Shown here in pieces: positions 1 to 13,663 of a stretch of 20,051 nucleotides of DNA (within the stretch, counting starts at the first letter, position 1; each line of letters starts with the position of its first letter). Origin of the DNA: a virus; the IMG/VR virus record IMGVR_UViG_3300010375_000060, positions 1 through 20,051 of that record. The stretch is one strand, 5' to 3'. The notes under the pieces were generated by a model that saw only the letters and a list, made by a program, of their open reading frames with translations, did no database searches and was not told the origin of the DNA. The translations under genes were made by a program, and so were the position numbers.

Positions 1-1
1 C

Positions 2-136
2 TACGCGATCAACGAGCTCCACTGGGTACTGGGCGAGGAACTGCTCGACGCGGCATTTGACGAGACGAACTGGGACACCGGGTCAGCCCTGAACGCTAGC
101 CGTACATCTTCCAGTTCTGTTCCGGGGTCCGAGTGA
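2..136 (+). CDS. C-terminal fragment of an unknown protein
   Basis: An open frame enters from the left edge and ends at TGA 134-136, giving 44 residues. The fragment begins with an acidic, probably helical stretch (INELHWVLGEELLDAAFDE) and ends in a Ser-rich tail (SRTSSSSVPGSE). The stop overlaps the GTG of the following methyltransferase gene, the tight coupling seen throughout this window, which supports it as a real gene end. The start and most of the protein lie outside the window, so no function can be assigned. Confidence 0.6.
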   Translation, partial: YAINELHWVLGEELLDAAFDETNWDTGSALNASRTSSSSVPGSE

Positions 137-972
137 GCAAGCTCACTAAGGCCGAAGCGAAAGCTCACGGTGACGCGCTGGCCCTGCTCGAGAAGGACGA
201 ACTTACCGACGACGACCGGATCTTCATCATGGAGAACTGGCAAGAGTCCGCGAACCACATCAACTCCGTAGCAGGTGCGTTCTTCACCCCGTGGAGGCTT
301 GCCAGAGACGCCGCGCTCGATATCTACAACGAGGGGCGCATCATCGACCTGTGCGCTGGCATCGGCACCCTGTCCCTCGCTGCGTTCTGGCGCGGCTACT
401 ACGACCGCCGAGACTCGGGCAAGACCCTCGAGATCGTGTGCGTGGAGATGAACCCCGAGTACGTCGAACTCGGCCGCAAGATGCTGCCCGAAGCGGAGTG
501 GATCTGCGGATCAATCTTCGACCTGCCCGACCTGGGCCACTTCGACCAGGCCATCAGCAACCCGCCATTCGGGACAATCAAGGCGGGTGGCGATTGGCGA
601 GGCAAGTATACGGGCTCGAAGTTCGAGTACCGCACCATCGAGGTTGCCTCGCGCATCGCTGACTACGGCACGTTCATTGTCCCGCAGCAGTCGGCGGGAT
701 TCCGATACTCCGGTGCGCCCTACTACATGCACAGCGAGAGTGGCGAGTATGCCACCACCCGCGAGTACGCGAAGTTCTCAGAACAGACGGGGATCCGCCT
801 TGACGCGGGCGTGGGCGTCGATACCACTGTCCACCAGGACGATTGGCATGGCGTCTCGCCCACGGTGGAGATCGCATGCGCCGACTTCACCGAGCTCGAG
901 AAGGTGGCCCCGGTGACTGAACTTCCGCAAGGCGACGCTCTCGACTTCGGCGACTGGAAGGCCAGCGCATGA
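133..972 (+). CDS. N6-adenine-type DNA methyltransferase
   Basis: A 279-residue class I SAM-dependent methyltransferase. Residues 72-80 (DLCAGIGTL) form the SAM-binding motif I, an acidic CVEMNP segment follows at 103-108, and NPPF at 143-146 is the catalytic motif IV typical of amino-methyltransferases that modify adenine N6. A motif-X-like FFTPW segment lies at about 50-54. The rest (about 150-279) would carry target recognition. The GTG start overlaps the previous stop, indicating translational coupling. No restriction endonuclease is visible beside it, so it is probably an orphan methylase that protects phage DNA from host restriction or acts in regulation; that role is inferred. N4-cytosine or RNA specificity cannot be excluded, because NPP[FY] is shared by these enzymes. 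Confidence 0.85.
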   Translation: MSKLTKAEAKAHGDALALLEKDELTDDDRIFIMENWQESANHINSVAGAFFTPWRLARDAALDIYNEGRIIDLCAGIGTLSLAAFWRGYYDRRDSGKTLEIVCVEMNPEYVELGRKMLPEAEWICGSIFDLPDLGHFDQAISNPPFGTIKAGGDWRGKYTGSKFEYRTIEVASRIADYGTFIVPQQSAGFRYSGAPYYMHSESGEYATTREYAKFSEQTGIRLDAGVGVDTTVHQDDWHGVSPTVEIACADFTELEKVAPVTELPQGDALDFGDWKASA

Positions 973-993
973 TCCGACAACTATCCATCCATT

Positions 994-1011
994 CTGTCCC
1001 GACCAAAGGAG
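994..1011 (+). repeat. Start-associated repeat, copy 1 (contains the RBS)
   Basis: CTGTCCCGACCAAAGGAG precedes the TTG start at 1018 by 6 nt and recurs with two changes at 5195-5212. Its right end is a strong Shine-Dalgarno sequence, but the left 10 bases are conserved too, which ribosome binding alone does not require. Start-associated sequences of this kind are known in some mycobacteriophages; that parallel is inference. Confidence 0.5.
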
Positions 1012-1017
1012 TCGACG

Positions 1018-1317
1018 TTGGCGATCAATGAATGCCCGAGCTGCGGGCGGTATCCGCACCTGGCGAACTGCCCCCACGCGCGGGGCATGAGCGTTGCCTC
1101 ATGGCCCCTTGCCAGCATCCACCCGACAACCCCCGAGGGCGTCTGGGCGCTCTGCGACCGCGATTACAACGAGACGATCACAGCCGTCTACGCCACAGAG
1201 GTAGAGGCACTGAGGGCCATCAACGGTCGCGGCTACGGCGACTCCATGGGTCGAAGATCGCCGGCACCTACATACCGCTATCACACGATTCACGACCAAG
1301 GAGGAGCGAATGACTGA
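1018..1317 (+). CDS. Small CxxC zinc-binding-like protein, unknown function
   Basis: A 99-residue protein not recognised as a named family. The N-terminus has C6-x2-C9 and C18-x-H20, which could bind one zinc ion. The remainder is a mixed alpha/beta sequence with WALCDRDYNETITAVYATEV in the middle, resembling small phage proteins that fold around a short sheet. A TTG start was chosen because AAAGGAG (1005-1011) sits 6 nt upstream; the ATG codons just downstream (1028, 1032) are in other frames. It overlaps the next gene by 8 nt, so both are probably made from one operon. No function is inferred. Confidence 0.7.
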   Translation: MAINECPSCGRYPHLANCPHARGMSVASWPLASIHPTTPEGVWALCDRDYNETITAVYATEVEALRAINGRGYGDSMGRRSPAPTYRYHTIHDQGGAND

Positions 1318-1768
1318 CTGGATTGAGCGAGACACGATGACGCCTCAGGATGTCTACCGAGATGCTCCAACCCGGCAGGTCGAGGAGAAGGTGCTTCCCG
1401 CTGCCGTGATGGACCCGATCGCCTCGGAGTTCTGGCGAGCGCGGGAGATCATCTCGGACATCACCGGAGCCGAGGGCTCGACAGGCCTGCACAACGACGG
1501 CGGTGTGCGCATGACCATCGGCGAGTATCGCAGGCTGGCCCGCTCTCTTCGCGGCGAGCGGGCAGAGATAGGTCGGCTGCGCCGTTGGGCTGAGGACGCC
1601 GCATCCGCGATTGACGCCGCCTCCATCATCGGACAGAAGCGTCTACCCGATGGGATTGGGCTCAACTACGGCGACCACGACCGCCTTCTGCGCGCCGCGT
1701 CGGACATGCTCGGAACGCTGCCCTACCGATCCGTCGAAGCATCTCAGGATAGTGAGCCTGCCTCGTGA
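1310..1768 (+). CDS. Hypothetical protein, 152 residues
   Basis: A charged, mostly helical protein with no recognised domain. Residues about 70-105 (GEYRRLARSLRGERAEIGRLRRW and on) are rich in Arg, Leu and Glu and could form a coiled coil. The tail is Ser/Glu-rich. The start is well supported: AAGGAGG (1298-1304) lies 5 nt before the ATG, itself inside the end of the upstream gene. Its own stop overlaps the GTG of the cytosine methyltransferase by 4 nt, so its expression should be coupled to it. It could be a small accessory protein of the methylation genes, but only position suggests this. Confidence 0.75.
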   Translation: MTDWIERDTMTPQDVYRDAPTRQVEEKVLPAAVMDPIASEFWRAREIISDITGAEGSTGLHNDGGVRMTIGEYRRLARSLRGERAEIGRLRRWAEDAASAIDAASIIGQKRLPDGIGLNYGDHDRLLRAASDMLGTLPYRSVEASQDSEPAS

Positions 1769-2451
1769 GGATCCTCGATCTCTATTGCTGCCAGGGCGGG
1801 GCGTCGCGCGGATATGCCGACGCCGGCCTCTCGGTCGTCGGCGTGGACATCGATCCGCAGCCGCGTTACCTCTTTCCGTTCGTGCAGATGGACGCCCTGG
1901 TCGCTCTCAGCACGCTCATTGCTGGCGGTTCTATTGGTGAGTGGTCGCTCGAGGACTTCGACGTGATCCACGCCAGCCCGCCGTGCCAGCTCTACTCGCT
2001 GACGCACCGGATCAACAAGTCAGACTTCCCCGACCTGATCGGCCCGACGCGGACGCTTCTCGAAGAGACCGGGTTGCCCTACGTCATCGAGAACGTGGTT
2101 GAGGCTGCGCCGGAGCTCCGCGACCCGATCATGCTATGCGGAGCGATGTTCGGTCTCGAGACCTACAGGCACCGGCTGTTCGAGACCGGACGCTGGCAGT
2201 CGACCGTTCCAGAGCATCCGGCTCACGTTGCCAAGACCACGAAGATGGGCCGCGCCGTGAAGGCCGGCGAGTTCATGCACGTAGTCGGCAACTTCACCGG
2301 AGTCGACAAGGGCCGCGAGGTCATGGAGATGCCGTGGGCGAACCGCAACGGCCTCCGCGAGGCAGTACCGCCGCGCTACACGTGGTGGCTCGGTCTGCGC
2401 CTCGTGACGCTGAGCCCTACATCGCACAGTTCTGGGAAAGAGGAATCGTGA
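1765..2451 (+). CDS. C5-cytosine DNA methyltransferase
   Basis: A 228-residue SAM-dependent enzyme. Residues 4-12 (LDLYCCQGG) are motif I, followed by an acidic GVDIDPQP segment at 26-33. PPCQ at 72-75 supplies the catalytic Cys74, ENV at 109-111 is motif VI, and RHRLFE at 135-140 resembles motif VIII. The protein is shorter than bacterial C5 methylases (usually over 300 residues), as is common for phage orphan enzymes with reduced target-recognition regions. The terminal motif (AVPPRYT, about 203-209) is followed by a sequence that does not look conserved and could reflect a late frameshift. The start is a GTG overlapping the previous stop. Probable role: self-methylation to evade host restriction. 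Confidence 0.87.
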   Translation: MRILDLYCCQGGASRGYADAGLSVVGVDIDPQPRYLFPFVQMDALVALSTLIAGGSIGEWSLEDFDVIHASPPCQLYSLTHRINKSDFPDLIGPTRTLLEETGLPYVIENVVEAAPELRDPIMLCGAMFGLETYRHRLFETGRWQSTVPEHPAHVAKTTKMGRAVKAGEFMHVVGNFTGVDKGREVMEMPWANRNGLREAVPPRYTWWLGLRLVTLSPTSHSSGKEES

Positions 2452-2696
2452 GCGTCAAGACCGAGATGAGCTACTGGGTTATCTGTGACGGGTGCGGCTA
2501 CCGTGTCGGAGAGGACGAGGATTATCTCCCCGTCTACTCAACCCGCGCTGAGGCCGTGGCTCTCGCGCTCGAGGGCGACTGGTACAGGGTCGGCCGCTAC
2601 CAGCACGCCTGCGCTCGGTGCGTCGACTGGGATATCAACGATGCCCCGTTTATACGCAAACCCGTTGATTTGGCACTAAAGGAAAGTGACACATGA
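2448..2696 (+). CDS. Small zinc-ribbon-like protein, 82 residues
   Basis: This protein has two cysteine pairs, C13-x2-C16 (CDGCG) and C55-x2-C58 (CARC), spaced as in a four-cysteine zinc ribbon. Between them is an Ala/Glu-rich helix (STRAEAVALALEG). The GTG start at 2448 was chosen because AAAGAGG (2437-2443) lies 4 nt upstream and the codon overlaps the methyltransferase stop. Further upstream the same frame is only a shadow of the methyltransferase gene. Such proteins are common in actinophage accessory regions; DNA, RNA or protein binding are all possible. No specific function is claimed. Confidence 0.72.
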   Translation: MSVKTEMSYWVICDGCGYRVGEDEDYLPVYSTRAEAVALALEGDWYRVGRYQHACARCVDWDINDAPFIRKPVDLALKESDT

Positions 2697-2698
2697 TG

Positions 2699-2728
2699 TT
2701 GCGCATGAGTGTCTCGCCGTGTTACGGT
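2699..2728 (+). promoter_or_regulatory. Candidate leaderless promoter
   Basis: TTGCGC (2699-2704), an 18-nt spacer and TACGGT (2723-2728) place the expected transcript start at about 2735, exactly the A of an ATG. The same -10-to-ATG distance of 6 nt occurs at the stronger promoter before 4498. The -35 and -10 matches are moderate, so this call rests mostly on spacing. Confidence 0.4.
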
Positions 2729-2734
2729 CTCGGT

Positions 2735-2995
2735 ATGGAAAACAACACGGACCTGAAGGTCGGACAGCACATCACCCGCAAGGTCATCCTCGGACGCTCG
2801 AGCGGCCCCGAACTCATCACCGAGACCATCGAGGTCGTCGCGATCGAGAACGGTAAGACCGTCGCACTCGGTCGCATTGTCGAGTCGGCAGACAACCATT
2901 CGGTCGGGCGGCACGCCCCGGTGTTCTTCACCGAGGCAGAGCGCGCGACTGGCGATGCCCTCGTGGAGGCGCAGTTCGAGGCTCTGGCGCGGTGA
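2735..2995 (+). CDS. Hypothetical protein, 86 residues
   Basis: No family recognised. The sequence alternates hydrophobic and polar residues (ITRKVILGR, TIEVVAIENGKTVALGRIVE), suggesting a small beta-sheet protein, and ends in a helix (TGDALVEAQFEALA). ATG 2735 is preferred over ATG 2693, although the latter has an upstream AAAGGAA and overlaps the previous stop. The extra 14 residues from 2693 (MMLRMSVSPCYGLG) do not look like protein and are encoded by what appears to be promoter sequence. Both starts could be used: the longer by coupling, the shorter from a leaderless transcript. The stop overlaps the next GTG start. Confidence 0.7.
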   Translation: MENNTDLKVGQHITRKVILGRSSGPELITETIEVVAIENGKTVALGRIVESADNHSVGRHAPVFFTEAERATGDALVEAQFEALAR

Positions 2996-3186
2996 GCGAC
3001 GTCTTGGCGGACCTTCGCCGTAATGCCAAGAAGCGCGGCGACCTCGCCGCAGAACGTGACGCCCTGATACTGCGCGCCAAGAGTGAGCGGATCCCGGTCG
3101 TGCGGATCGCGTCGGCGGTCGGTCTCACCCGTCAGCAGGTGCACCGAATCATCACAGAATTAGCGAATAGTGAGGTAAGCAAATGA
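2992..3186 (+). CDS. Small helix-turn-helix DNA-binding protein (copy A)
   Basis: A 64-residue protein. An N-terminal charged helix (about 1-32) precedes a helix-turn-helix at about residues 34-56 (IPVVRIASAVGLTRQQVHRI), with the usual Ala in the first helix, Gly at the turn and a recognition helix starting at TRQQ. It resembles the protein at 5007-5189 over its whole length and, more weakly, the one at 9117-9308. It may act as a small transcription regulator of this phage; the palindromes before 4498 are a candidate target, by inference only. The GTG start overlaps the upstream stop and the TGA overlaps the next ATG. Confidence 0.78.
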   Translation: MSDVLADLRRNAKKRGDLAAERDALILRAKSERIPVVRIASAVGLTRQQVHRIITELANSEVSK

Positions 3187-3455
3187 CGACCGACGCTGAC
3201 ATCCTGCGCCGAATCGCAGACGACTCGGACCTCCGAAAGTGGTCCGACGACGCTGAGACCCTGCGCGCGATTGCCGACCGCCTGGATGCAATCGACTCAA
3301 CGTTCGTGGACCCTGACCCCTGGTTCCGCTACTGCGACAGCGAAATGCCCGGTGCTCCATCATGGGAGCGTTACGCGACCGAGAGCAACGGCACCGAGTA
3401 CAGGCCGCGCACCAAGGCCGAGTGGAGCCGACAGAACGGTGCCGTTCGTGCTTAG
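3183..3455 (+). CDS. Hypothetical protein, 90 residues
   Basis: Not recognised. The first 40 residues are strongly helical (ADILRRIADDSDLRKWSDD, AETLRAIADRLDAID). The second half is rich in aromatic and polar residues with no clear motif (DPDPWFRYCDSEMPGAPSWERY). GAGGTAAG lies just upstream of the ATG, and the start overlaps the stop of the HTH gene in an ATGA junction, so co-translation is likely. Composition and codon choice match the neighbours. Function unknown. Confidence 0.65.
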   Translation: MTTDADILRRIADDSDLRKWSDDAETLRAIADRLDAIDSTFVDPDPWFRYCDSEMPGAPSWERYATESNGTEYRPRTKAEWSRQNGAVRA

Positions 3456-3491
3456 CCGCAAATGTGGGAATGCCGGTCCGAAGGAGGAAGC

Positions 3492-3728
3492 ATGATCGAG
3501 ACGGGCGAGGGAACGCCGGGGGTCGCACAGAGTCGTCTTGGCGAAGAGTTCTCGGTCGACCTCATCCGCGAGATCGACGCCAGCGGGGGATTCCCGCAGG
3601 GTGCGTTCCTGTTCCGCCTCGGGGAGGACTATCCCTACGAGAAGTGGCGTGGAGATCGGCGCTGGTTCGATAAGCGCGACTTCGGATTTGTGCCTACACG
3701 CGAGAGTGTAGGGCCAACTGATGACTGA
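3492..3728 (+). CDS. Hypothetical protein, 78 residues
   Basis: An acidic, aromatic-rich small protein of unknown function (DLIREIDASGGFPQGAFLF, then DYPYEKWRGDRRWFDKRDFG). The start at 3492 was preferred over an in-frame ATG at 3462 because AAGGAGG (3481-3487) lies 4 nt upstream of it. The last codons contain a perfect 7-bp inverted repeat (3693-3712) just before the next gene, and the stop lies within the next coding region by 8 nt. No transmembrane segment or signal peptide is visible. Confidence 0.65.
   Translation: MIETGEGTPGVAQSRLGEEFSVDLIREIDASGGFPQGAFLFRLGEDYPYEKWRGDRRWFDKRDFGFVPTRESVGPTDD
3693..3712 (+). promoter_or_regulatory. RNA hairpin over the next gene's ribosome-binding region
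   Basis: CCTACAC (3693-3699), loop GCGAGA, GTGTAGG (3706-3712) form a perfect 7-bp stem. The 3' arm holds the only AGG-like Shine-Dalgarno element ahead of ATG 3721, so folding could dampen initiation unless ribosomes translating the upstream gene open it. That coupling role is inferred. Confidence 0.4.
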
Positions 3729-4092
3729 CACGATCGAAAGCCTTCGAGCTCGACTGGACGAAGCCGAAGAGAAGATCACCTTCCTTGAGGCGGGCTGCAT
3801 GAACCTCACCCGCGACGAACTGATCCAGCGCATAACCGCGGTGGGTCCAGCCCGTTGGAAGGCCGGGGTCTACTGGCAAGAGCGAGATGACAAGCAGCAT
3901 GCGGCAGGGATGCAGACGGAGCGCGATCATGCGGCATACCTGCTCGAACGGCGTTCAGCCATGGAAGCACCCAACGCTGCGGAAGCCTTGCGATTCATGG
4001 CATCGGTCATCCGCGAGAATCGAACGCTGCCACCGATCATGCTCGGAAAAGCACGGTCAATTTCTGTCCCGGGGGGGGGGGGGCATCGATGA
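3721..4092 (+). CDS. Hypothetical coiled-coil protein ending in a poly-G-encoded tail
   Basis: A 123-residue protein of unknown function. Residues 3-25 (DTIESLRARLDEAEEKITFLE) look like a coiled coil; the middle is helical and rich in Glu, Arg and Ala, with QERDDKQHAAGMQTERDHA. The last residues, PGGGGHR, come from a run of 13 G (4071-4083). One extra G, or a -1 ribosomal slip on the run, would carry this frame straight into the next gene with no intervening stop. One G fewer would give a short alternative tail. The upstream hairpin covers its weak ribosome-binding site. Confidence 0.65.
   Translation: MTDTIESLRARLDEAEEKITFLEAGCMNLTRDELIQRITAVGPARWKAGVYWQERDDKQHAAGMQTERDHAAYLLERRSAMEAPNAAEALRFMASVIRENRTLPPIMLGKARSISVPGGGGHR
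4071..4083 (+). repeat. G13 homopolymer tract
   Basis: Thirteen consecutive G after CTGTCCC, at the 3' end of one gene and 5 nt before the ATG of the next. No run of comparable length was noticed elsewhere in the window. It sits where a Shine-Dalgarno sequence would be, and G-runs can pair with the CCUCC of 16S rRNA. Length changes would alter the upstream gene's C-terminus and could fuse the two genes. A sequencing or assembly error is the main alternative. Confidence 0.9.
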
Positions 4093-4457
4093 GTGACCTA
4101 ACGACCCTGATGGTCAAGACCGGTCACGTAACGAGCGCCGAGTCCGAGGAACGATTCGACCGCTGGATCGCCAGCGTTGAGGCCGGCGCGCTCCGCGGCT
4201 ATGCCGACTACCTCGAGGCGACCATCCACTCGCTCTCCAACATGGCAGACGAGGAAGATCGACGGCAGACCGCGCTCGAAGTCGACTGCATGCGGAACTA
4301 TGCCGATTACGTCGAATGCCGCGGCGGGCGTTGGGCCACATACAGGGTGGGCGACCCGGCTCCCTGCACCAATCAGTCAACGCTTGGCGAGCTCGACCCG
4401 CTCATCGGCAAACGAATCCCCCTATCCCCTGGTAAAGAGCTAGGAAAAGATGTGTAA
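4089..4457 (+). CDS. Hypothetical protein, 122 residues
   Basis: An acidic, largely helical protein (EERFDRWIASVEAGALRGYA, ADEEDRRQTALEVDCMRNYA) with no recognised family. Two similar segments, RGYADYLEATI and RNYADYVECRG, may be an internal repeat of about 45 residues. The C-terminus is polar and probably loose. The only ribosome-binding candidate is the G13 run 5 nt upstream of the ATG, so expression could depend on run length. It is followed by a 40-bp gap holding the promoter and operators of the next gene, so it probably ends the first transcription unit. Confidence 0.65.
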   Translation: MSDLTTLMVKTGHVTSAESEERFDRWIASVEAGALRGYADYLEATIHSLSNMADEEDRRQTALEVDCMRNYADYVECRGGRWATYRVGDPAPCTNQSTLGELDPLIGKRIPLSPGKELGKDV

Positions 4458-4467
4458 CCGAGTTGCA
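4453..4467. promoter_or_regulatory. Operator-like site 1 (imperfect palindrome)
   Basis: TGTAACCGAGTTGCA matches the perfect palindrome at 4484-4498 in 12 of 15 positions. It lies 31 bp upstream of it, close to three helical turns, so proteins bound at the two would face the same side of the DNA. Its right edge covers most of the -35 element. Confidence 0.55.
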
Positions 4468-4491
4468 CAATCACGAGAACGGGTGTAACTT
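4463..4491 (+). promoter_or_regulatory. Leaderless sigma70-type promoter
   Basis: TTGCAC (4463-4468), a 17-nt spacer and TAACTT (4486-4491), preceded by TG, make a good extended promoter. The expected start point, 6-7 nt after the -10, is the A of ATG 4498, so the transcript should have no leader. There is no Shine-Dalgarno sequence before this gene, which fits. The GTGTAACTT at its -10 recurs at the 12145 promoter. Confidence 0.65.
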
Positions 4492-4498
4492 AGTTACA
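4484..4498. promoter_or_regulatory. Operator-like site 2 (perfect palindrome)
   Basis: TGTAACTTAGTTACA is a perfect 7+1+7 palindrome spanning the -10 element and the expected transcript start. A repressor dimer here would block initiation directly. The related copy at 4453-4467 covers the -35. The binding protein is not identified; a phage repressor or one of the small HTH proteins in this window are candidates. Confidence 0.65.
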
Positions 4499-5010
4499 TG
4501 ACCACACAGACTGACTACCCCGCATTGAAGCCCGAGCTGTTCCTGTCCCGCGGGACCACCAACGGCATCGAGTGGGTGATCGCCCGCGGACCCGAGGGCA
4601 CCTTCCACATCAACGGCTACGTCCGGATCCCCGAGGGGAACCCGTGGCGTGGAATCGGCATCGACCGCATCCACGGTACGGGCGCACCCTTCGGCCTGTC
4701 GTTCGAGGACGACAACGGCTGGATCGGTTTCGACACCGAGAACATCAGCGCCTACTGGCCTGGACAGGATCGCGCGTCGAAGTTCCACGACTACAAGGAG
4801 TGGACGCTTGAGGATGTCGTGGAGGCGACCAAGAGTCTCGCACGCAAGGTCGCGGCTGCGCCCGAGGGCGACCGACTCCCGGTCTACCCCGATCCCGTGC
4901 AGGCGGCGAAGGATGCCGCCCACGAGGCGTGGGAGAACGGCAACGTGTTCAGCGACGAGGCGTTCGACAAGGTGTGGGACGGCTATCGCGCGGGGCTGGC
5001 AGATCGGTGA
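4498..5010 (+). CDS. Hypothetical protein, 170 residues, own leaderless promoter
   Basis: Unknown family. The first 90 residues look like a beta-rich domain (FHINGYVRIPEG, GLSFEDDNGWIGFDTENIS) with many Gly, Trp and Asp. The second half is helical (TLEDVVEATKSLARKVAAA, AAKDAAHEAWENGNVFSDEA). It is the first gene of a transcription unit whose promoter is overlapped by two palindromes and whose RNA should start at the ATG. That tight control suggests a product the phage needs at a defined time, for example in lysogeny or early infection; this is inference. The stop overlaps the GTG of the next HTH gene. Confidence 0.75.
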   Translation: MTTQTDYPALKPELFLSRGTTNGIEWVIARGPEGTFHINGYVRIPEGNPWRGIGIDRIHGTGAPFGLSFEDDNGWIGFDTENISAYWPGQDRASKFHDYKEWTLEDVVEATKSLARKVAAAPEGDRLPVYPDPVQAAKDAAHEAWENGNVFSDEAFDKVWDGYRAGLADR

Positions 5011-5189
5011 GTGTCCGTGAGGATCTCGCCGCTCTGCGAGCCGAGCAGGAGTCATACCCAGCCCGTCGCGCAGCCCTGGTCGAGAAGGCGCGGGCGGAGG
5101 GAATGACATGGCTCGAGATCGCGAACGCGCTCGGCATGACCCAACACGGTCTACTGAAATCCCAAGCCCGCATCAAAGACAACATCTGA
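5007..5189 (+). CDS. Small helix-turn-helix DNA-binding protein (copy B)
   Basis: A 60-residue protein: an N-terminal helix rich in Arg, Glu and Ala (EDLAALRAEQ, ARRAALVEKARAEG), then a helix-turn-helix at about residues 34-55 (MTWLEIANALGMTQHGLLKS). It matches the protein at 2992-3186 in layout and in key residues (RxALxxxAKxE, xxIAxALGxT), so the two probably arose by duplication. It follows the operator-controlled gene with a GTGA overlap, so it could be an autoregulator of that unit; this is inferred from position. The GTG start gives a typical size for the group. Confidence 0.77.
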   Translation: MSVREDLAALRAEQESYPARRAALVEKARAEGMTWLEIANALGMTQHGLLKSQARIKDNI

Positions 5190-5194
5190 GCATG

Positions 5195-5212
5195 CTGTCC
5201 CAACCGAAGGAG
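5195..5212 (+). repeat. Start-associated repeat, copy 2 (contains the RBS)
   Basis: CTGTCCCAACCGAAGGAG differs from the copy at 994-1011 in two of 18 positions and sits 5 nt before the GTG at 5218. CTGTCCC alone also precedes the G13 run (4064-4070), as if that junction once held a third copy. Confidence 0.5.
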
Positions 5213-5217
5213 AAGAA

Positions 5218-5418
5218 GTGATCAAGACTCTTTGGTACTCGCTCTACGTGTTACTGGCGCTAGTGGTCATCGTGTGCGCCGCGTCCATAGTTCTGGCAAT
5301 CGTCGCGGCGTTCACGTTCTCGCCGTGGTGCGCGCTCGCTATTCCGGTCACGATCGTACTGACGGTCACGGCTGCTCGCGCCGCTGGCTGGGCGGCAGTC
5401 AATGGCATTGACGCCTGA
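5218..5418 (+). CDS. Small two-helix membrane protein
   Basis: A 66-residue hydrophobic protein with two predicted membrane segments, about residues 6-31 (YSLYVLLALVVIVCAASIVL) and about 38-58 (CALAIPVTIVLTVTAARAAG), separated by a short turn with Trp and Pro. A Lys near the N-terminus suggests an N-in orientation. The GTG start is supported by GAAGGAG 5 nt upstream. Function unknown: small phage membrane proteins may be superinfection-exclusion factors, holin-like proteins or membrane anchors, and nothing here decides between these. It is far from a lysis cassette, which argues against a holin. Confidence 0.72.
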   Translation: MIKTLWYSLYVLLALVVIVCAASIVLAIVAAFTFSPWCALAIPVTIVLTVTAARAAGWAAVNGIDA

Positions 5419-5421
5419 GCC

Positions 5422-5787
5422 ATGACGAGCATCTTCGAAGTCTCTGGCGGATTCAGCGCCAAGCAGGTCGCTGAACTCGACTCGCTGTCGCGCGACTGGG
5501 CGTTTCTCACTAATCAGCCGATCGCGGATGCCGCCACGGAAATCGCGATGGCCTATTGGTCGACGCCTGGTAGTCGTCGCCGGCTGAGGACGATCGAGCG
5601 CCTCGGTGCCGACCCGTTTGCCGGTACCCCAGATGAGTTGATCGATGATCTGCGCGAGCGGGTTGGCGGTGCAGCGCCAGCCTGGTACGGCAACTCGCTA
5701 TCGCCATTAGACCATGCCGTCAAAGCGCTGGCTGACGATCTCGCTCGTCCGCTCACTTGGCTGGCGAACAAAATCAGCCGCAACTAG
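5422..5787 (+). CDS. Hypothetical protein, 121 residues
   Basis: A helical protein with no recognised family. FSAKQVAELDSLSRDWAFLT opens the protein; the middle has TPGSRRRLRTIERLGADPFAG, and the C-terminus (LDHAVKALADDLARPLTWLA) could be an amphipathic helix. There is no clear Shine-Dalgarno sequence before the ATG, which lies 3 nt after the preceding stop, so translation probably depends on coupling. Codon use matches its neighbours. Confidence 0.62.
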   Translation: MTSIFEVSGGFSAKQVAELDSLSRDWAFLTNQPIADAATEIAMAYWSTPGSRRRLRTIERLGADPFAGTPDELIDDLRERVGGAAPAWYGNSLSPLDHAVKALADDLARPLTWLANKISRN

Positions 5788-5849
5788 CCCTGAACGTTCC
5801 GATATACGACAAAGGCGTGCAGCGACCGGACTGCGCAGCAAGAGCATCC

Positions 5850-6365
5850 ATGGAAAAGACCGGTCGCCCTGACGGTGGGCAGGACTCGGAGTCGCGCTCG
5901 TACAAGCGCCCCACCACCCGTTCTGCCGAGGCGGCTGACGAGATTGACCGTCTGCGCGCCCAGATCACGGAACTTCACGAGCGTCGTCGTGCCGCTCAGG
6001 CTGGCATTGCTGAACGTGACGCCCAGCTCGCGGAGGCGCTGGCCGTGCTAGACCCGGCGCACTGGCTTCCCGAGAAGATCGCTCAGGCGTTCCATGAAGC
6101 GTATGAGCGTCTCGCACCTCAGTTCGGATACGAGACTCGCGAGGCGTCCGCTGTGGCATGGGAGAACGTGCCTGCCCAGAACAAGGCGCTGATGACCGCC
6201 ACGGTTGCCGCTCTGCTCGCGTCGGGTGTGCTCGGTGCCCCCGCCGACCAGATACGCGCCGAAGTCTGGGACGAGGCTCGCGCGGCAACCCTGGATGACG
6301 TGATCAGCGCTGACGGTTACGCCGAACGCGCCAACCCCTACAGGGGGGAGGCGACAGGCGCGTAA
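5850..6365 (+). CDS. Hypothetical coiled-coil protein, 171 residues
   Basis: Residues about 28-65 (DEIDRLRAQITELHERRRAA, then IAERDAQLAEALAVL) form a likely coiled coil, followed by a helical domain with an Ala-rich core (KALMTATVAALLASGVLGAP). ATG 5850 was chosen because GCAAGAG lies 6 nt upstream. An in-frame TTG at 5757 would add 31 residues but would overlap the previous gene, and the added sequence does not look protein-like. The gene ends the left accessory cluster and is followed by the inverted repeat and integrase. Function unknown; similar charged coiled-coil proteins are frequent in actinophage accessory regions. Confidence 0.65.
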   Translation: MEKTGRPDGGQDSESRSYKRPTTRSAEAADEIDRLRAQITELHERRRAAQAGIAERDAQLAEALAVLDPAHWLPEKIAQAFHEAYERLAPQFGYETREASAVAWENVPAQNKALMTATVAALLASGVLGAPADQIRAEVWDEARAATLDDVISADGYAERANPYRGEATGA

Positions 6366-6391
6366 AGCGTCACTACATGCACCCATTGGGG

Positions 6392-6430
6392 TACATCCCT
6401 AACTAAGCACTCCCGTTAGTTAGGGATGTA
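6392..6430. repeat. 15-bp perfect inverted repeat upstream of the integrase
   Basis: TACATCCCTAACTAA (6392-6406) and TTAGTTAGGGATGTA (6416-6430) are exact reverse complements separated by GCACTCCCG. The position just before an integrase gene, the core-site-like layout (two inverted arms around a short spacer) and the lack of a T-run favour an attachment-site core or an operator over a terminator. The right arm could also serve as a -35 (TTAGTT, 17 nt, TACAAC at 6439-6444), which would make it an operator for integrase. Confidence 0.85.
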
Positions 6431-6439
6431 GCCACACCT

Positions 6440-6459
6440 ACAACTGAATAACAACTGAA
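6440..6459 (+). repeat. Two direct repeats one helical turn apart
   Basis: ACAACTGAA occurs at 6440-6448 and again at 6451-6459, an 11-bp period. The second copy runs into the integrase Shine-Dalgarno sequence GAAGGAG (6457-6463). A protein bound here would cover the ribosome-binding region; arm-type integrase sites are an alternative reading. Confidence 0.55.
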
Positions 6460-6468
6460 GGAGTCCAC

Positions 6469-7284
6469 ATGCCGTGGAACACAATCGATCCCGCTTACCT
6501 CAAATATCTCAAGGCGGCAACGAGATCACCGCGCACCATCGAACTGCGCACCTACCAAATCCGCAAACTCCGCAACGCACACCCCGGCCTCGAAGCGGAA
6601 GACATCACCGACGACATCCTCGTCGACTACATGGGAAACCCCGACTGGGCACCAAACACCAAAGGTGTCGTCCGCAGCTCGCTCACCGGCTACTTCGGGT
6701 TCGCGTTCCGCAAAGGATTCCTCCCCGACGACCCGACCAAAGACCTGCCAGCCGTTCGCGTGCCGCACGGTGTACCGAAGCCGGCCACCCTCGAGGCCGT
6801 CAACGCCGCACTAGACAAAGCCAGCCCCCGTGTCGAGCTGATGGTCATCATCGGAGTACGCATCGGTGCCAGGGCAATGGAAATCGCACAAGTCCACGTC
6901 CGCGACATCGAAGGGATACCGGGGCGATACTCGTTGCGCATCGTCGGCAAGGGATCCAAGACCCGCCTCGTGCCAATCTCCGACGAGACCGCCGATCTAC
7001 TGCGCGTCGACCGCGAAGGCAACGAACGAACCGGCTACATATTCCCCGGCCGCGACAACGGACACACCGCCCCCGCAACCGTCAGCCGCTACGTATCCAA
7101 GGTTCTGCCGCCCGGAGTGACGTGCCACAAGCTGCGGCACCGGTTCGCAACCCAAGTCATCAAGTCCGGTGGTGAACTGCTTGCCCTTCAGCGACTCATG
7201 GGACACGCCTCAGTCGCAACCACGCAAGGGTACGTAGGCATTGATGATGACCAGCTCCGCGACGCCGCAATGGGCGCGTGGTGA
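6469..7284 (+). CDS. int: Tyrosine recombinase (phage integrase)
   Basis: A 271-residue site-specific recombinase that would integrate and excise the phage genome. Residues 8-95 form the SAM-like core-binding domain (SPRTIELRTYQIRKL, VVRSSLTGYFGFAFRKGFL). The catalytic domain carries Arg135 (GARAMEI), a beta-hairpin Lys (161 or 164, GKGSKTR), H220-x-x-R223 (CHKLRH), His246 (MGH) and the nucleophile Tyr255 (TTQGYVG), so the active site looks complete. There is no N-terminal arm-binding domain, as in XerC/D-like enzymes. GAAGGAG lies 5 nt before the ATG. Unusually, its stop overlaps the start of a nuclease gene, placing integrase at the head of the recombination operon. Codons here favour C/A in third position. 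Confidence 0.93.
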   Translation: MPWNTIDPAYLKYLKAATRSPRTIELRTYQIRKLRNAHPGLEAEDITDDILVDYMGNPDWAPNTKGVVRSSLTGYFGFAFRKGFLPDDPTKDLPAVRVPHGVPKPATLEAVNAALDKASPRVELMVIIGVRIGARAMEIAQVHVRDIEGIPGRYSLRIVGKGSKTRLVPISDETADLLRVDREGNERTGYIFPGRDNGHTAPATVSRYVSKVLPPGVTCHKLRHRFATQVIKSGGELLALQRLMGHASVATTQGYVGIDDDQLRDAAMGAW

Positions 7285-7646
7285 CCCGCTCAAGATCGTC
7301 AGCGAGGGCAGCCGGAAGTAGTCACGAACGCAACATCGCTGACTACCTCGCGTTGCATGTTGACGACCGCATCGACCGTCGTGTCAAGACCGGTGCGAAG
7401 GATCGGGGCGACATCGGCGGGCTACGTGTCCTCGACAACCGCATCGTGATTGAAGCGAAGGACTACGGCGGCAGGATTCTCGCCGCCGAGTGGATCGCTG
7501 AGGCCGAGCTTGAGGCCGGCAACGACGACGCGACAGCGGGCATCGTCATCGCAAAACGTAAAGGCGTCACAGCACCCGGCAAACAGTGGGTGCTCATGGA
7601 CGTCGACACCCTCATCACCCTCATCACAGGACAGAGACCCGAATGA
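7278..7646 (+). CDS. Hjc-like PD-(D/E)xK nuclease (possible Holliday-junction resolvase)
   Basis: A 122-residue protein with the layout of small archaeal-type Holliday-junction resolvases: Glu17 in a helix (SHERNIADYL), Asp45 in RGDIGG, and E59-x-K61 in VIEAKDY, the core of a metal-dependent PD-(D/E)xK active site. A helix (AAEWIAEAELEA) and a final strand (GIVIAKRKG) complete the fold. Beside a YqaJ-type exonuclease it could resolve recombination intermediates or trim branched DNA before packaging. GTG 7278 and GTG 7281 are both possible starts; the second gives the usual 4-nt overlap with the integrase stop. The fold assignment is fairly secure, the exact substrate is inferred. Confidence 0.75.
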   Translation: MVTRSRSSARAAGSSHERNIADYLALHVDDRIDRRVKTGAKDRGDIGGLRVLDNRIVIEAKDYGGRILAAEWIAEAELEAGNDDATAGIVIAKRKGVTAPGKQWVLMDVDTLITLITGQRPE

Positions 7647-8323
7647 CCCTGACAATCCTCAACGACATAGAACAGGGATCCGCAGAATGGTACGAGGCAC
7701 GCCTCGGAATCGTCACCGCCAGCACCGTAGGTCGACTGATCACCGCGAAGACAATCACGCCTGCCTCGAACGTGGAATCGCGGTCTCTCGCCGCAACCCT
7801 GGTTGCCGAGCGACTCAACGGGTGGGCTGACGACAACTACGTCTCTTTCGACATGGCCCGCGGGCACGAAGTCGAACCCATCGCTCGAGCGTTGTACAGC
7901 GAGCATTACGCGCCAGTTGAAGAGGTCGCGTTCATGATCCGAAACGACGGCGGGTACGAGATCGGCTACAGCCCGGACGGTCTAGTCGGCATCGATGGGC
8001 TTATCGAAATCAAGTCGAGGAGACCCAAGGAGCATCTGTTCGCGATCCTGGCCGACGCAGTGCCCGACGAGAACATGTCGCAACTTCAATGCGGGTTGCT
8101 GGTATCGGGCCGTTCGTGGATCGATTACGTGTCGTACTGCGGCGGGATGCCGTTGTGGGTGAAGCGCGTGTACCCGGATGCGGACTGGTTCGCGGCGATC
8201 AAGAAGGCTGTCGAGTCGTTTGAGCGGGCCGCGACTCACATGATGTCCACCTACAGGATGGCGACCGCTGGGCTCCCCGCAACGGAGCGTGCCGTTGCGG
8301 TCCTCGAAGAGATGAGGTTCTGA
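7643..8323 (+). CDS. YqaJ/lambda-exonuclease-type recombinase nuclease
   Basis: A 226-residue member of the PD-(D/E)xK viral exonuclease group. QGSAEWYEARLGIVTAS (11-27) is the family's N-terminal signature, Asp112 lies in SPDGLVG, E122-x-K124 in IEIKSRR, and Gln147/Gln149 in QLQCG matches the usual Q-x-Q end of the active site. Such enzymes degrade the 5' strand of linear double-stranded DNA to prepare it for single-strand annealing. The next gene is therefore a natural place to look for the annealing partner. The ATG start overlaps the nuclease stop. Codon choice shifts inside the gene, from C/A-ending early to G/T-ending later. Confidence 0.9.
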   Translation: MTLTILNDIEQGSAEWYEARLGIVTASTVGRLITAKTITPASNVESRSLAATLVAERLNGWADDNYVSFDMARGHEVEPIARALYSEHYAPVEEVAFMIRNDGGYEIGYSPDGLVGIDGLIEIKSRRPKEHLFAILADAVPDENMSQLQCGLLVSGRSWIDYVSYCGGMPLWVKRVYPDADWFAAIKKAVESFERAATHMMSTYRMATAGLPATERAVAVLEEMRF

Positions 8324-8874
8324 TGGATCTGTCCCAAAGCATTGTTCCGAAGAGTGACCAACTCAACGCAGACGATCTGATCGCAGGCCCGGTGACTGTC
8401 ACGATCGAATCGGTAACGGCCGGCACAGACGAACAGCCGGTGAACGTGAACCTGGTTGAGTTCCCTGGCCGCGCGTACAGGCCGTCCAAGTCGATGCGTC
8501 GAGTGATGGTCGCGGCGTGGGGTCCGGAGACGTCAACGTATGGTCGGCGTCGGATGACGTTGTTCCGCAACCCGGATATCCAGTTCGGGGGGCGGGCCGT
8601 TGGTGGGATCGAGATCGCGGCCATGAGCGACATCGAGAAGCCGTTGACGATCGCGTTGACTCGCACGCGTGGAAGCCGGAAGGACTTCACGGTGAAACCC
8701 CTCGAGAGTGTGCCCGACGCAGCGGGTGAGTGGCTAGCGGCGATCGGTAAGGCGGCAACGATGGGACAGCTCGAGGCGGCTTGGAGGGGAGCTGCGTCAG
8801 ATGGGGTCGCTTCGGATCCGCGTGTGACGGCGGCGAAGGATGCGAAGAAGGCCCTGCTGGGCAAAGAAAACTGA
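8323..8874 (+). CDS. Unknown protein paired with the YqaJ exonuclease
   Basis: A 183-residue protein of no family I can name. Residues about 20-110 look like a beta-rich, possibly OB-like domain (GPVTVTIESVTAG, NVNLVEFPGRAYRPSKSMRR, KPLTIALTRTRGSRKDFTVK), followed by an Ala-rich helical tail ending AAKDAKKALLGKEN. The basic segment RPSKSMRRVMVAAWGPETS could contact nucleic acid. Its start touches the exonuclease stop, so the two are made together, and exonuclease-annealase pairs are common in phages. A role in annealing or as an exonuclease cofactor is therefore a fair guess, but no Erf, RecT or Redbeta signature is visible. It is the last gene before the non-coding origin-like region. Confidence 0.75.
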   Translation: MDLSQSIVPKSDQLNADDLIAGPVTVTIESVTAGTDEQPVNVNLVEFPGRAYRPSKSMRRVMVAAWGPETSTYGRRRMTLFRNPDIQFGGRAVGGIEIAAMSDIEKPLTIALTRTRGSRKDFTVKPLESVPDAAGEWLAAIGKAATMGQLEAAWRGAASDGVASDPRVTAAKDAKKALLGKEN

Positions 8875-8881
8875 CGCCAAT

Positions 8882-9003
8882 CCGTCCACAGGCACTTCGC
8901 CCTTTCACATGCCCGGGTGTCGGCGATGACTGACAGGCTTTTGCACTGAGTTGTCCACCGAAATGCGGACAGAATGCACTTTCGAATCACAGGGTTGTCC
9001 ACA
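8882..9003 (+). other. Cluster of DnaA-box-like sites (possible origin region)
   Basis: Three same-strand sites resemble the actinobacterial DnaA box TTGTCCACA: CCGTCCACA (8882-8890, two mismatches), TTGTCCACC (8951-8959, one) and TTGTCCACA (8995-9003, exact). They lie in the largest gene-free stretch of the window (8875-9116), just before the replication genes. Known DnaA boxes bind the host initiator; that the phage recruits it here is inference. Confidence 0.6.
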
Positions 9004-9023
9004 GGGCAGCTTGCCGAACGAAC

Positions 9024-9037
9024 GTTCCACGTGGAAC
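9024..9037. promoter_or_regulatory. parS-like palindrome (ParB-binding site candidate)
   Basis: GTTCCACGTGGAAC is a perfect 14-bp palindrome. It equals the chromosomal parS core GTTTCACGTGAAAC except for one symmetric T-to-C / A-to-G pair, a variation tolerated in actinobacterial parS sites. It lies 20 bp after the exact DnaA box. No ParA or ParB gene is seen in the window. A different protein recognising CACGTG is the alternative. Confidence 0.65.
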
Positions 9038-9050
9038 ATCAATACGAACG

Positions 9051-9085
9051 AAGCGGCCCAAAGGTGTTGGCGCACCGGGCCGCTT
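9051..9085 (+). terminator. Large GC-rich hairpin, probable terminator or origin structure
   Basis: AAGCGGCCC (9051-9059) pairs with GGGCCGCTT (9077-9085), and within it GGTG (9063-9066) pairs with CACC (9073-9076) around a 6-nt loop. This gives 13 pairs with a single 3-nt bulge. It ends the intergenic region 32 bp before the next start. The T-run is poor (TTCT), so rho-independent termination is only probable; a structured origin element is the alternative. Confidence 0.6.
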
Positions 9086-9116
9086 CTGATCCACCCACCT
9101 TGCAATGGAGGACTGA

Positions 9117-9308
9117 TTGTCGACCCTATCTGCCGCAGCCGATCATCTGCGAATGCTGCGCCTCGAACGCGACCCCAAGCAGGACGCCCTCTACGTTCGC
9201 CTCGCCTTCACCTACGGGATCCCGGTTGACGAGATCGCATCCATCTCCGATCTGCCTCTTCAGCGCGTGAGAGCGATCCTCGACCCGAATAGTTGTGCCC
9301 GTGGCTAG
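9117..9308 (+). CDS. Small helix-turn-helix-like protein (copy C)
   Basis: A 63-residue protein. After a charged helix (ADHLRMLRLERDPKQDAL) comes a probable helix-turn-helix at about residues 31-54 (FTYGIPVDEIASISDLPLQR), ending VRAIL. The layout follows the small HTH proteins at 2992 and 5007, though the turn Gly is replaced by Ser or Asp. A TTG start is well supported by GGAGG (9107-9111) 5 nt upstream. As the first gene after the origin-like region, it may bind that region or regulate the replication genes; this is inferred from position. It overlaps the initiator gene by 14 nt. Confidence 0.7.
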   Translation: MSTLSAAADHLRMLRLERDPKQDALYVRLAFTYGIPVDEIASISDLPLQRVRAILDPNSCARG

Positions 9309-10044
9309 GAAAAGGATGATCAGCCCCGAGCTCAGAACATCCGAGAAGGTTGCCCAATGGCCGCGCGAGGTCCGCTACTTCTGGGTGCTACTACTCGGCT
9401 ACCTGGACGACTACGGAAAGGGGAAAGACAACCCGCAGCTCATCAAGTCCGACTGCCTCCCCCTCGACGATGACGTGACCGCTTCGAAGGTGGACGAGTG
9501 GCTTTGGATCATCGCTGGGGCCGGCGTGATCGTCCGATACACGGCCGATGGCGTCAATTACATCGCCGCGGTGAACTGGAGAGAGCATCAGACGATCCAG
9601 CATCCTACCAACAGCAAAATCCCTGATCAGGAAGGGAATGAAATCCGCGTGAAAGGCTCACGAAAGATTCGTGAAAGCCTCACTCCTAGTTTAGTTAAGA
9701 GTAATTCAATAGAAGCGTCACGCGGGCGCGTGACGGACAGTGACTTTCTTGTCGCCTGGACGCACTGGCCGAAGAAGACAGACCGAACCAAATCGTTCGA
9801 ACGGTTCGCCGCCATCGCCAAGTCTCGAGGCCTCGAGACAATCACCGCAGAAGTGATCAAGTTCGGCGACGCATACGCACGAACGACCGAGAAGAAGTTC
9901 GTGCCGGCCCTTGCCGCTTGGCTAAACCGGGAACGATGGACAGACGAACTGCCCACGGCTGGCGGAGCAGCGCCGGCATACGTTCCAGAAGCCAAAGCTC
10001 CCGCAGGTAAGAAGTGGGCCGTCGATGTGATGGACGACTTCTGA
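9295..10044 (+). CDS. Replication initiator / replisome-organiser-like protein
   Basis: A 249-residue protein with two regions joined by a polar linker. Residues about 8-105 look like a winged-helix DNA-binding domain of phage replication proteins (PELRTSEKVAQWPREVRYFW, then LLLGYLDDYGKG and VIVRYTADGVNYIAAVNWRE). Residues 149-217 (SDFLVAWTHWPKKTDRTKSF, KFVPALAAWLNRERWTDE) are a C-terminal domain often seen in such proteins and thought to engage the helicase or its loader. The linker (about 106-148) is encoded by DNA with direct repeats, an AT-rich segment and an inverted repeat, as in phage lambda gene O, which contains its own origin. GTG 9295 or GTG 9301 may be the start. The downstream ATPase would be its helicase partner. 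Confidence 0.8.
   Translation: MPVARKRMISPELRTSEKVAQWPREVRYFWVLLLGYLDDYGKGKDNPQLIKSDCLPLDDDVTASKVDEWLWIIAGAGVIVRYTADGVNYIAAVNWREHQTIQHPTNSKIPDQEGNEIRVKGSRKIRESLTPSLVKSNSIEASRGRVTDSDFLVAWTHWPKKTDRTKSFERFAAIAKSRGLETITAEVIKFGDAYARTTEKKFVPALAAWLNRERWTDELPTAGGAAPAYVPEAKAPAGKKWAVDVMDDF
9649..9735. other. Candidate replication origin inside the initiator gene
   Basis: Two 13-mers, GTGAAAGGCTCAC (9649-9661) and GTGAAAGCCTCAC (9671-9683), differ at one base and are 22 bp apart, two helical turns. An unusually AT-rich stretch follows (about 9686-9712), then a perfect inverted repeat CGTCACGCG-GG-CGCGTGACG (9716-9735). Iterons beside an AT-rich unwinding segment are the standard form of an initiator-dependent origin. 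Confidence 0.6.
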
Positions 10045-10313
10045 TGCCCGCTATCGGCGCCTCGGTTGAAAAGTCCCTCGACGACAGCCTCCACAAGCTG
10101 CTGGCTGGGGAGATCGAACTATCCGACCTGACACCAGCCCTTCAAGGCTGGTACGTTGCCGGGTTTGTCAACGGGCAGCAGATCCTCCCCGAAGACGCTC
10201 ACCTCCGCTGGGAAGCCGACCTCTGGTACTTCGTCGCCAACAACCGTGGCAAGACCGCATCTGACTTCTACGCCGGCATCACAACAAGGCTCTGGGAGGA
10301 GGCAAGTGAGTGA
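10044..10313 (+). CDS. Small protein between initiator and helicase-like ATPase
   Basis: An 89-residue acidic, helical protein (SLDDSLHKLLAGEIELSDLT, ALQGWYVAGFVNGQQILPED) of no recognised family. Its start overlaps the initiator stop and its stop overlaps the ATPase start, so all three are translationally coupled. A helicase-loading or replisome adaptor role would fit the position but is inferred. There are several Trp residues (WYVAGF, LRWEADLWYF) and a conserved-looking end, ITTRLWEEASE. Confidence 0.72.
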   Translation: MPAIGASVEKSLDDSLHKLLAGEIELSDLTPALQGWYVAGFVNGQQILPEDAHLRWEADLWYFVANNRGKTASDFYAGITTRLWEEASE

Positions 10314-11184
10314 CGACTTCGAGAGCGCCGTCGAACAGCAGCGGTTCCGAACCGCTGTCTTCGAGGAAGCCAAGAACCGCGACAGAGAAGAGAGCGCAGC
10401 AAAGGTCGGAACGAAACTCGCCCCCAAACCGCTCGGAGAGATTCTGGCGGACGAGCCGACATGGGATTGGCTTGTCCCGGATCTGCTCGAGCGGAAAGAC
10501 CGACTCGTCGTAACCGGTGCTGAAGGTCTGGGCAAGTCACACTTCCTCCGCCAGATTGCGATCAGCATGTCTGCTGGTGTTCACCCGTTCAAGATCCGCG
10601 AGAAGGTCATCCCATCGAGGGTTCTGGTCATCGACGCAGAGAACACCGAACAGCAGTGGTCGCGTGGTGCACGGTACGTCACCCGACTCGCCGAGCAGCA
10701 CGGTTCGGTCAGTCCTCGCCGGATGGTGCAAGTGTCGGCGGGGGTTCGCATCGACTTGACGTTGCGGGCTGACGTCAACCAGGTCCGCGCGCTGATCACA
10801 AACATGCGACCCGACGTGCTGTACATCGGACCGTTGTACAAGCTGCTGCCGAAAGCGTTGAACACCGACGACGACGCAGCGCCCGTCATTGAAGCCCTCG
10901 ACAGCTTCCGAGAGCTCGGCGTGACGTTGCTGATGGAAGCGCACGCCGGCCACGCCCGCAACAGTGCTGGCGAACGTGACCTGCGCCCGCGTGGCGCATC
11001 AGCTCTGCTCGGCTGGCCCGAGTTCGGTCTCGGTCTGGCGCCAGTCGACGAATCGGATCTGTCGATGGTGCGGTTGGCGCAGTGGCGCAACGGGCGTGAG
11101 CAACGTGATTGGCCGAAACATCTTAGGCGTGGGCAGGTCGGTGAGCTTCCCTGGGAGCCGGCTTTCCCCGATTCGAATCTGTAA
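10306..11184 (+). CDS. RepA-like / AAA_25-type hexameric ATPase (probable replicative helicase)
   Basis: A 292-residue RecA-fold ATPase. Walker A is GAEGLGKS at residues 71-78. A strand VLVIDAEN (106-113) matches the conserved acidic strand of RepA/KaiC-like proteins. The Walker B strand is VLYIGPLYKLL (171-181), in which the usual Asp is Gly. EAHAGHARN (211-219) is the sensor region. An N-terminal helical segment (1-40) precedes WDWLVPDLLERKDRLVVTG, the usual lead-in of this family. It would unwind DNA or load the replisome at the phage origin with the upstream initiator. GTG 10306 was chosen: GGAGG lies 3 nt upstream and the codon overlaps the previous stop. Starting further upstream would overlap the small gene fully. 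Confidence 0.83.
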   Translation: MSDDFESAVEQQRFRTAVFEEAKNRDREESAAKVGTKLAPKPLGEILADEPTWDWLVPDLLERKDRLVVTGAEGLGKSHFLRQIAISMSAGVHPFKIREKVIPSRVLVIDAENTEQQWSRGARYVTRLAEQHGSVSPRRMVQVSAGVRIDLTLRADVNQVRALITNMRPDVLYIGPLYKLLPKALNTDDDAAPVIEALDSFRELGVTLLMEAHAGHARNSAGERDLRPRGASALLGWPEFGLGLAPVDESDLSMVRLAQWRNGREQRDWPKHLRRGQVGELPWEPAFPDSNL

Positions 11185-11213
11185 TACCCCTACCCGAAAA
11201 GGAATGAAAGCAA

Positions 11214-11519
11214 ATGGCAACGATCAACATTCAGAACGCGACCGTCCAGTTCGTGAACAACGGCAAGGGGTTCAAGGTACTTGAGGAGACCACATCTGGT
11301 GGCCGCACGTTCAAGCAGCAGTACACAGTGTGGGCTGAGCCGGGTCATGGGTATCAGGTCGGAGACACGGTGTCTGTTTCGGGTTTCCTGGGTGCGAAGG
11401 TTGGGAAGCCCTGGACGGGTAACGATGGTGTCGAGCGGGCTTCGGTGGAGTTGTCGGTGAACTCGCCGACGTTCACGAAGTCGCCTGCTTCGGTGAACGA
11501 GGCTGAGGTTCCGTTTTGA
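11214..11519 (+). CDS. SSB-like OB-fold protein
   Basis: A 101-residue beta-rich protein (MATINIQNATVQFVNNGKGF, TFKQQYTVWAEPGHGYQVGD, TVSVSGFLGAKVGK, RASVELSVNSPTF) with the strand pattern of a single OB fold. It ends in EAEVPF, close to the DDDIPF tail by which bacterial SSBs bind partner proteins. It is shorter than bacterial SSB (about 150-180 residues) and lacks the long Gly/Gln linker. Its place after the helicase-like ATPase fits single-strand protection during replication. AAAGGA (11198-11203) precedes the ATG by 10 nt. The fold is inferred from pattern, not a signature motif. Confidence 0.75.
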   Translation: MATINIQNATVQFVNNGKGFKVLEETTSGGRTFKQQYTVWAEPGHGYQVGDTVSVSGFLGAKVGKPWTGNDGVERASVELSVNSPTFTKSPASVNEAEVPF

Positions 11520-12148: not shown

Positions 12149-12174
12149 CAGATCGAACTACACTCGTGTAACTT
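12145..12174 (+). promoter_or_regulatory. Strong sigma70-type promoter ahead of the HTH-terminase region
   Basis: A consensus TTGACA (12145-12150), an 18-nt spacer and TAACTT (12169-12174) preceded by TG. An inverted repeat TACAC-TC-GTGTA (12159-12170) overlaps the -10, and GTGTAACTT is identical to the -10 region of the 4463 promoter. Transcription should begin near 12181. Confidence 0.7.
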
Positions 12175-12180
12175 TGACCC

Positions 12181-12260: not shown

Positions 12261-12281
12261 GCGTGGGCGGAACGGAACACA

Positions 12282-13632: not shown

Positions 13633-13635
13633 ACA

Positions 13636-13663
13636 CCCCAGCGTTCACGACGGTGACGTGGGG
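13636..13663 (+). terminator. Hairpin after the metallophosphoesterase gene (weak terminator candidate)
   Basis: CCCCA-g-CGT-t-CAC pairs with GTG-ACG-TGGGG around GACG, eleven pairs with two single-base bulges, starting 4 nt after the stop. There is no T-run, so it may be an RNA-processing or stabilising element instead. The rest of the 13633-13736 gap holds nothing else convincing. Confidence 0.35.

Follow-up and report, generated by a model that had tools for sequence, protein, structure and literature searches.

A putative leaderless promoter with paired palindromes before a small accessory operon in a probable temperate actinophage

The early region and its genes

The stretch of DNA analysed here (the window) is the 20,051-base IMG/VR virus record IMGVR_UViG_3300010375_000060 (positions 1-20,051), with a G+C content of 61%. 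The gene order of the window runs from early/accessory genes through an integrase, a RusA-like resolvase and replication genes to the terminase, portal, protease and capsid genes. The terminase is closest to that of Arthrobacter phage Pitbull (57%), and a short stretch of the window matches Microbacterium phage Footloose; for these reasons the host is probably an actinobacterium. A comparison of the terminase with genome contigs found no prophage, and no lysogeny repressor was recognised within the 20-kb window. The phage, from soil, is probably a temperate actinophage, and the segment studied here, 4453-4498, would lie in its early region. The function and regulation of the accessory genes found in such regions of actinophages are mostly unknown.

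Upstream of this segment lies an ORF (4089-4457) for whose product no relatives were found. Just 5’ of its ATG, inside the 3’ end of the preceding ORF (3721-4092), there is a run of about 12-13 G residues (4072-4084) that is either a slippery tract or a sequencing or assembly artefact. Farther downstream, shortly 5’ of the integrase ATG (6469), an 18-nt inverted repeat (6389-6433; 94% complementary, 9-nt loop) is a possible terminator or recombination-related element.

The gene that follows the segment (4498-5010, plus strand) is the predicted leaderless first gene of an operon, and encodes a 170-aa protein of unknown function assigned to phrog_2164. This protein has no match in Pfam, NCBIfam or PADLOC, its structure model is of low confidence, and no toxin that would point to a type II toxin-antitoxin operon was recognised in it. 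In the related record G001 and in most annotated phages having a phrog_2164 gene, its start lies a few bases within the 3’ end of the gene before it; a promoter of its own thus appears to be a special trait of the window. The second gene overlaps the end of the first, starts at a GTG (5007 or 5010) and extends to 5189 on the same strand; it encodes a helix-turn-helix (HTH) protein of 59 or 60 aa that matches phrog_686 (E=2.4e-6) and, weakly, Sigma70_r4 and HTH_23. Its AlphaFold model consists of four helices (mean pLDDT 80); a fold search with this model gave no significant PDB match, and no homologues of the protein were found. A third gene on the plus strand (5218-5418), with its own ribosome binding site, encodes a predicted membrane protein of 66 aa, 80% identical to the product of the gene located 3’ of an analogous promoter in the relative G010; it is a possible member of the operon.

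The putative promoter and its two palindromes

A candidate − 10 element, TAACTT, which conforms to TANNNT, is located at 4486-4491 on the plus strand, 6 nt 5’ of the ATG at 4498, and is preceded at 17 bp by a candidate − 35 element, TTGCAC (4463-4468), that is a weak match to the consensus. Each hexamer agrees with the E. coli consensus in three of six positions, and a generic sigma-70 scan called no promoter at 4453-4498. An in-frame TAA (4486-4488) rules out a start codon farther upstream, and there is no Shine-Dalgarno sequence at a usable distance from the ATG. Among 39 start positions examined in the window, only 4498 has a TANNNT motif 5-8 nt upstream, and it combines the sequence features of a leaderless promoter, i.e. 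a TANNNT that lies 6-7 nt 5’ of the initiation codon and no Shine-Dalgarno sequence. In M. tuberculosis the usual promoter signature is TANNNT without a conserved − 35, and this motif alone often suffices for actinobacterial promoters; leaderless messages are common in that species and predominate among toxin-antitoxin pairs (PMC3898074). Given the position of TAACTT, the in-frame TAA and the lack of a usable Shine-Dalgarno sequence, the best reading is a leaderless mRNA, which we grade only as likely because of the weak TTGCAC and the negative generic scan.

Two operator-like palindromes lie on this promoter. The downstream one, TGTAACTTAGTTACA (4484-4498), is perfect, with 7/7 arm positions complementary around a single central base, and covers TAACTT and the A of the ATG; the TAA mentioned above falls inside it. 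The upstream one, TGTAACCGAGTTGCA (4453-4467), is imperfect (5/7 arm positions complementary), is identical to TGTAACTTAGTTACA in 12 of 15 positions, overlaps all but one of the bases of TTGCAC, and contains the TAA stop (4455-4457) of the ORF 4089-4457. Their centres are 31 bp apart, and the direct repeat that they form can be read over 23 nt (74%). A preliminary description of this DNA had reported a perfect 15-bp palindrome that takes in the − 10 and the start point, as well as a 12/15 relative over the − 35, with this same spacing, and both are present.

Lone perfect 15-bp palindromes are unremarkable, given that the window has four and a shuffled window 1.9. Matching pairs are rare: the window contains one, and a pair of any kind appeared in 1 of 300 dinucleotide shuffles (0.0033 per shuffled window). 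Other high-GC loci used for comparison had no matching pair, save two retrieved with the motif itself. A broader scan, covering 213 kb of sequence from the family, found six pairs where shuffles predicted 1.5; those located at start codons were three, in the window and in two relatives (G010 and G011). When 1277 ATG starts of ORFs of at least 60 codons, on both strands of 18 records, were ranked by pair score, the top three were G011 21505, G010 19333/19342 and, in third place, window 4498, and the start at 3177 of locus L064 (G012) was one of ten with a score of at least 7; these ranks measure rarity and are no clean test, because the scan was devised after the window had been seen. G010 and G011 had been selected without regard to pairs.

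The site itself was also used to search databases. In IMG/VR, the exact single site followed by ATG had 11 matches, mostly of low or moderate GC and none resembling a related phage; in all but one of them the ATG opens a frame of at most 17 codons. The paired pattern retrieved 14 IMG/VR stretches, two of them (L039 and L043) in or beside replication-type genes rich in GTAAC repeats and the remainder from unrelated contexts, and both sets were set aside. In these two loci, which come from unrelated phages, TGTAAC repeats form iteron-like clusters (L043 1884-1933 and L039 8585-8644) near or within the putative replication genes. Compared by BLAST with phages and plasmids, the promoter gave nothing better than E=6.

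Paired palindromes in related phages

Six related IMG/VR records were identified, G001 and G009-G013. The DNA of G001 is 97-99% identical to the window over 7323-16172; upstream of this sharp module boundary (window 7323), G001 has an unrelated region (L020 1-4400, compared with window 1-7323), in which an HNH endonuclease gene (3697-4206) takes the place of the integrase. In contrast, G009-G013 carry an integrase 81-99% identical to that of the window, and in three of them (G010, G011 and L064 of G012) a leaderless-type promoter with paired palindromes lies 1.5-4.1 kb 5’ of it, as compared with 2.0 kb in the window. In G011, GTGTCATGACAC occurs twice (21474/21500), 26 bp apart, and the ATG at 21505 opens a gene for a ribbon-helix-helix (RHH) protein. 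In G010, GATGTAGGTACATC and GGTGTAGGTACACC (19287/19311) are separated by 24 bp on a promoter of the form TTGACG-N17-TAAGAT-N7-ATG, and in L064 two copies of GTATATAC (3138/3162), also 24 bp apart, accompany TATACT-N6-ATG; in both cases the RHH protein is encoded by the second gene. All three RHH proteins match phrog_6506, annotated as Arc-like repressor, and an HMM built from them found clear members solely in G010, G011 and L064 among the records scanned. In G009, G013 and G001, no comparable pair was found at a promoter, and no RHH protein either. The layout is thus common to three relatives with operon-encoded RHH proteins, and the relatives without RHH protein lack the pair.

Beyond these records, Mycobacterium phages Majeke and Seagreen carry pairs of the GTATATAC type, with a spacing of 12 bp, before operons that include an annotated Arc-like repressor; the promoter palindromes are two copies of GGTATATACC in Majeke and GTATATAC/GTATGTAC in Seagreen. 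In these two phages and in L064, pairs of this type (L080 1261/1273, L079 778/790 and L064 3138/3162) occur despite RHH proteins that are only distantly alike. The same scan found no such pair in GMA1, Phistory, Holliday and MrSmee, which have related RHH genes.

Four relatives (G009, G010, G011 and G013; loci L067-L074) possess two tyrosine integrases, the early-region one in common with the window and a second one beside a gene for a repressor-like DNA-binding protein, in an immunity-type locus. In G009-G011 the repressor-like protein is of the XRE type and its gene is accompanied by a divergent MerR/Xis-like gene; the repressor locus of the relatives lies elsewhere in their genomes. A leaderless geometry goes with regulatory genes in the relatives: it precedes the XRE repressor genes of G009, G010 and G011 and the divergent MerR/Xis-like gene of G009 and G010; in G013 both divergent genes for DNA-binding proteins show it, and in one case the TAACTT of the window recurs.

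Proposed control of the accessory operon

We propose that a small autoregulated accessory operon is controlled at 4453-4498, an operon whose repressor is most likely the 59/60-aa HTH protein, a model to which we give roughly even chances. A SigA-type promoter with TAACTT as its − 10 would start the transcript at the ATG (4498) or no more than two bases from it. A dimeric repressor would bind both palindromes, about three helical turns apart; with one bound site over the − 35 and the other over the − 10 and start, RNA polymerase would be excluded and the operon kept off or low. The likeliest repressor would be the HTH protein of the second gene (5007/5010-5189), and the unit would therefore be autoregulated. 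The sequence shows the palindromes and their excess over chance, the spacing of − 10 and ATG, the lack of a usable Shine-Dalgarno sequence and of an upstream start, and a like layout in three relatives; operator-like sites overlap the candidate promoter of an operon that encodes a DNA-binding protein. That the promoter is active, that its transcript is leaderless, that it is repressed and which protein represses it are points that we infer. The link between the HTH protein and the TGTAAC sites is likewise one that we infer, from position and analogy, since no HTH homologue with TGTAAC sites of its own was found. Against the model count the regulator family (HTH in the window, RHH in the relatives) and the different operator sequence, the spacing (31 bp in the window, 24-26 bp in the relatives), the weak − 35, the negative generic scan, and the related RHH genes without a pair in other actinophages. 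The view of the preliminary description that a repressor-operator design lies on a leaderless promoter, in front of an accessory gene whose function is unknown, agrees with the sequence and with the analogous sites in three relatives.

The same description had suggested that this may be a lysogeny-controlled unit; in that case, a CI-like repressor of the phage would bind the pair and silence the accessory unit in the prophage. The presence of an integrase in the window is compatible with this idea, as are the XRE repressors with leaderless promoters of the relatives, and the repressor locus of the window phage itself falls outside the 20-kb fragment. However, no close copy of CTAGGTATACCTAG, the single clear operator at the repressor locus of G009 and G010, exists beyond that locus, which argues that the accessory pairs of this group are not sites of the immunity repressor; motifs picked at this locus in G011 and in G013 gave no promoter-linked copy either, and the accessory pairs of the relatives differ in sequence and go with operon-encoded RHH proteins. 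The search for similar sites that the description recommended yielded the single pair in the window and, with TGTAACNNNGTTACA at up to two mismatches, one GC-rich match in G009-G013. Lysogeny-repressor control thus found no support in this analysis; we regard it as unlikely while still granting it some weight, and by analogy with the relatives autoregulation of the operon fits better, with control by the small protein of each operon as the simplest model for all of them. The pair might instead be bound by another regulator of the phage, encoded in the missing part of the genome or by the gene at 2992-3186, whose product is a small HTH protein with weak similarity to the 5007 protein. That gene, however, lies upstream of and outside the operon, whereas three relatives encode the DNA-binding protein within it, and we consider this rather improbable.

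Promoter-overlapping palindromes of 15 bp are characteristic of TetR-type operators, and a host regulator, for instance a TetR-like protein, could act through a host-type operator. Nevertheless, when a collection of 84,980 species was scanned for two such sites with 12-22 bp between them, 11 stretches were found, and none bore an actinobacterial label; we consider this explanation very improbable. A chance pair, or a palindrome that serves some other purpose, on a promoter without regulation at these sites is also quite improbable. The expectation of lone 15-bp palindromes in shuffled windows, and the fact that the support comes from sequence alone, speak for such a coincidence; the scarcity of pairs in the shuffles, the exact fit to the − 10 and ATG, the similar pairs in three relatives and the rank of the start at 4498 speak against it.

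Returning to the autoregulated operon, a broader idea may be put forward tentatively, as a possibility that we think more likely wrong than right. The slot 5’ of the early-region integrase of this group of soil actinophages could receive interchangeable self-repressed cassettes in which regulator family and operator are swapped together; each cassette would consist of a leaderless promoter with two matching palindromes, at least one small cargo gene and the gene of a small DNA-binding protein of either the RHH or the HTH family. As regulator and operator would be exchanged together, each accessory operon would be insulated from the lysogeny switch of its own phage and from co-resident relatives. 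If this were true, the recurring promoter-operator-regulator design would mark autonomous units, possibly expressed from the prophage, such accessory genes could be found from sequence alone, and the cassettes would be a source of compact orthogonal repressor-promoter pairs for actinobacteria.

Comparison with known systems

In lambda-type immunity operators and in the stoperators of cluster A phages, repressor sites overlap promoters, as the operator-like palindromes do in the window. In contrast to these systems, the window has a single promoter with the site, and the immunity operator of G009 and G010 is unlike the accessory sites. Closer in layout are the operons gp57-gp56 of Majeke and gp71-gp69 of Seagreen, which are small, include an overlapping gene for a DNA-binding protein and have two like palindromes over the promoter; however, the protein of the window is HTH and not RHH, and the palindromes of the window, at 15 bp, are longer and have a spacing of 31 bp as against 12 bp. 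An RHH HMM detected no RHH protein in the window, which speaks against an Arc-like RHH accessory operon there, and no paper on the regulation of operons of the Majeke/Seagreen type was found.

Rv2827c of M. tuberculosis represses the promoter of its own toxin-antitoxin operon, Rv2827c-Rv2826c, through two sets of inverted repeats that match the consensus unequally (PMC7319586). The window resembles this operon in having an operon-encoded DNA-binding protein and two inverted-repeat sites, with repression being proposed in our case; it differs in that its protein belongs to another family and that no toxin was recognised (PADLOC negative). In the cluster K mycobacteriophage Adephagia, the ESAS and P90 are intergenic SigA-like promoters of 46-47 bp with an inverted repeat, and the antitoxin gene 90 has a putative leaderless transcript (PMC11373665). 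The ESAS motif is repeated in the genome and has a 17-base imperfect inverted repeat, whereas the element of the window is present a single time and comprises two palindromes. For Sbash, genes 30-31 are described in PMC6426606 as accessory genes transcribed from a lysogenic promoter of their own. Autorepression through two sets of inverted repeats and putatively leaderless or lysogenic accessory promoters are therefore already known, and the part worth pursuing is the possible common slot with its exchanged regulators and operators.
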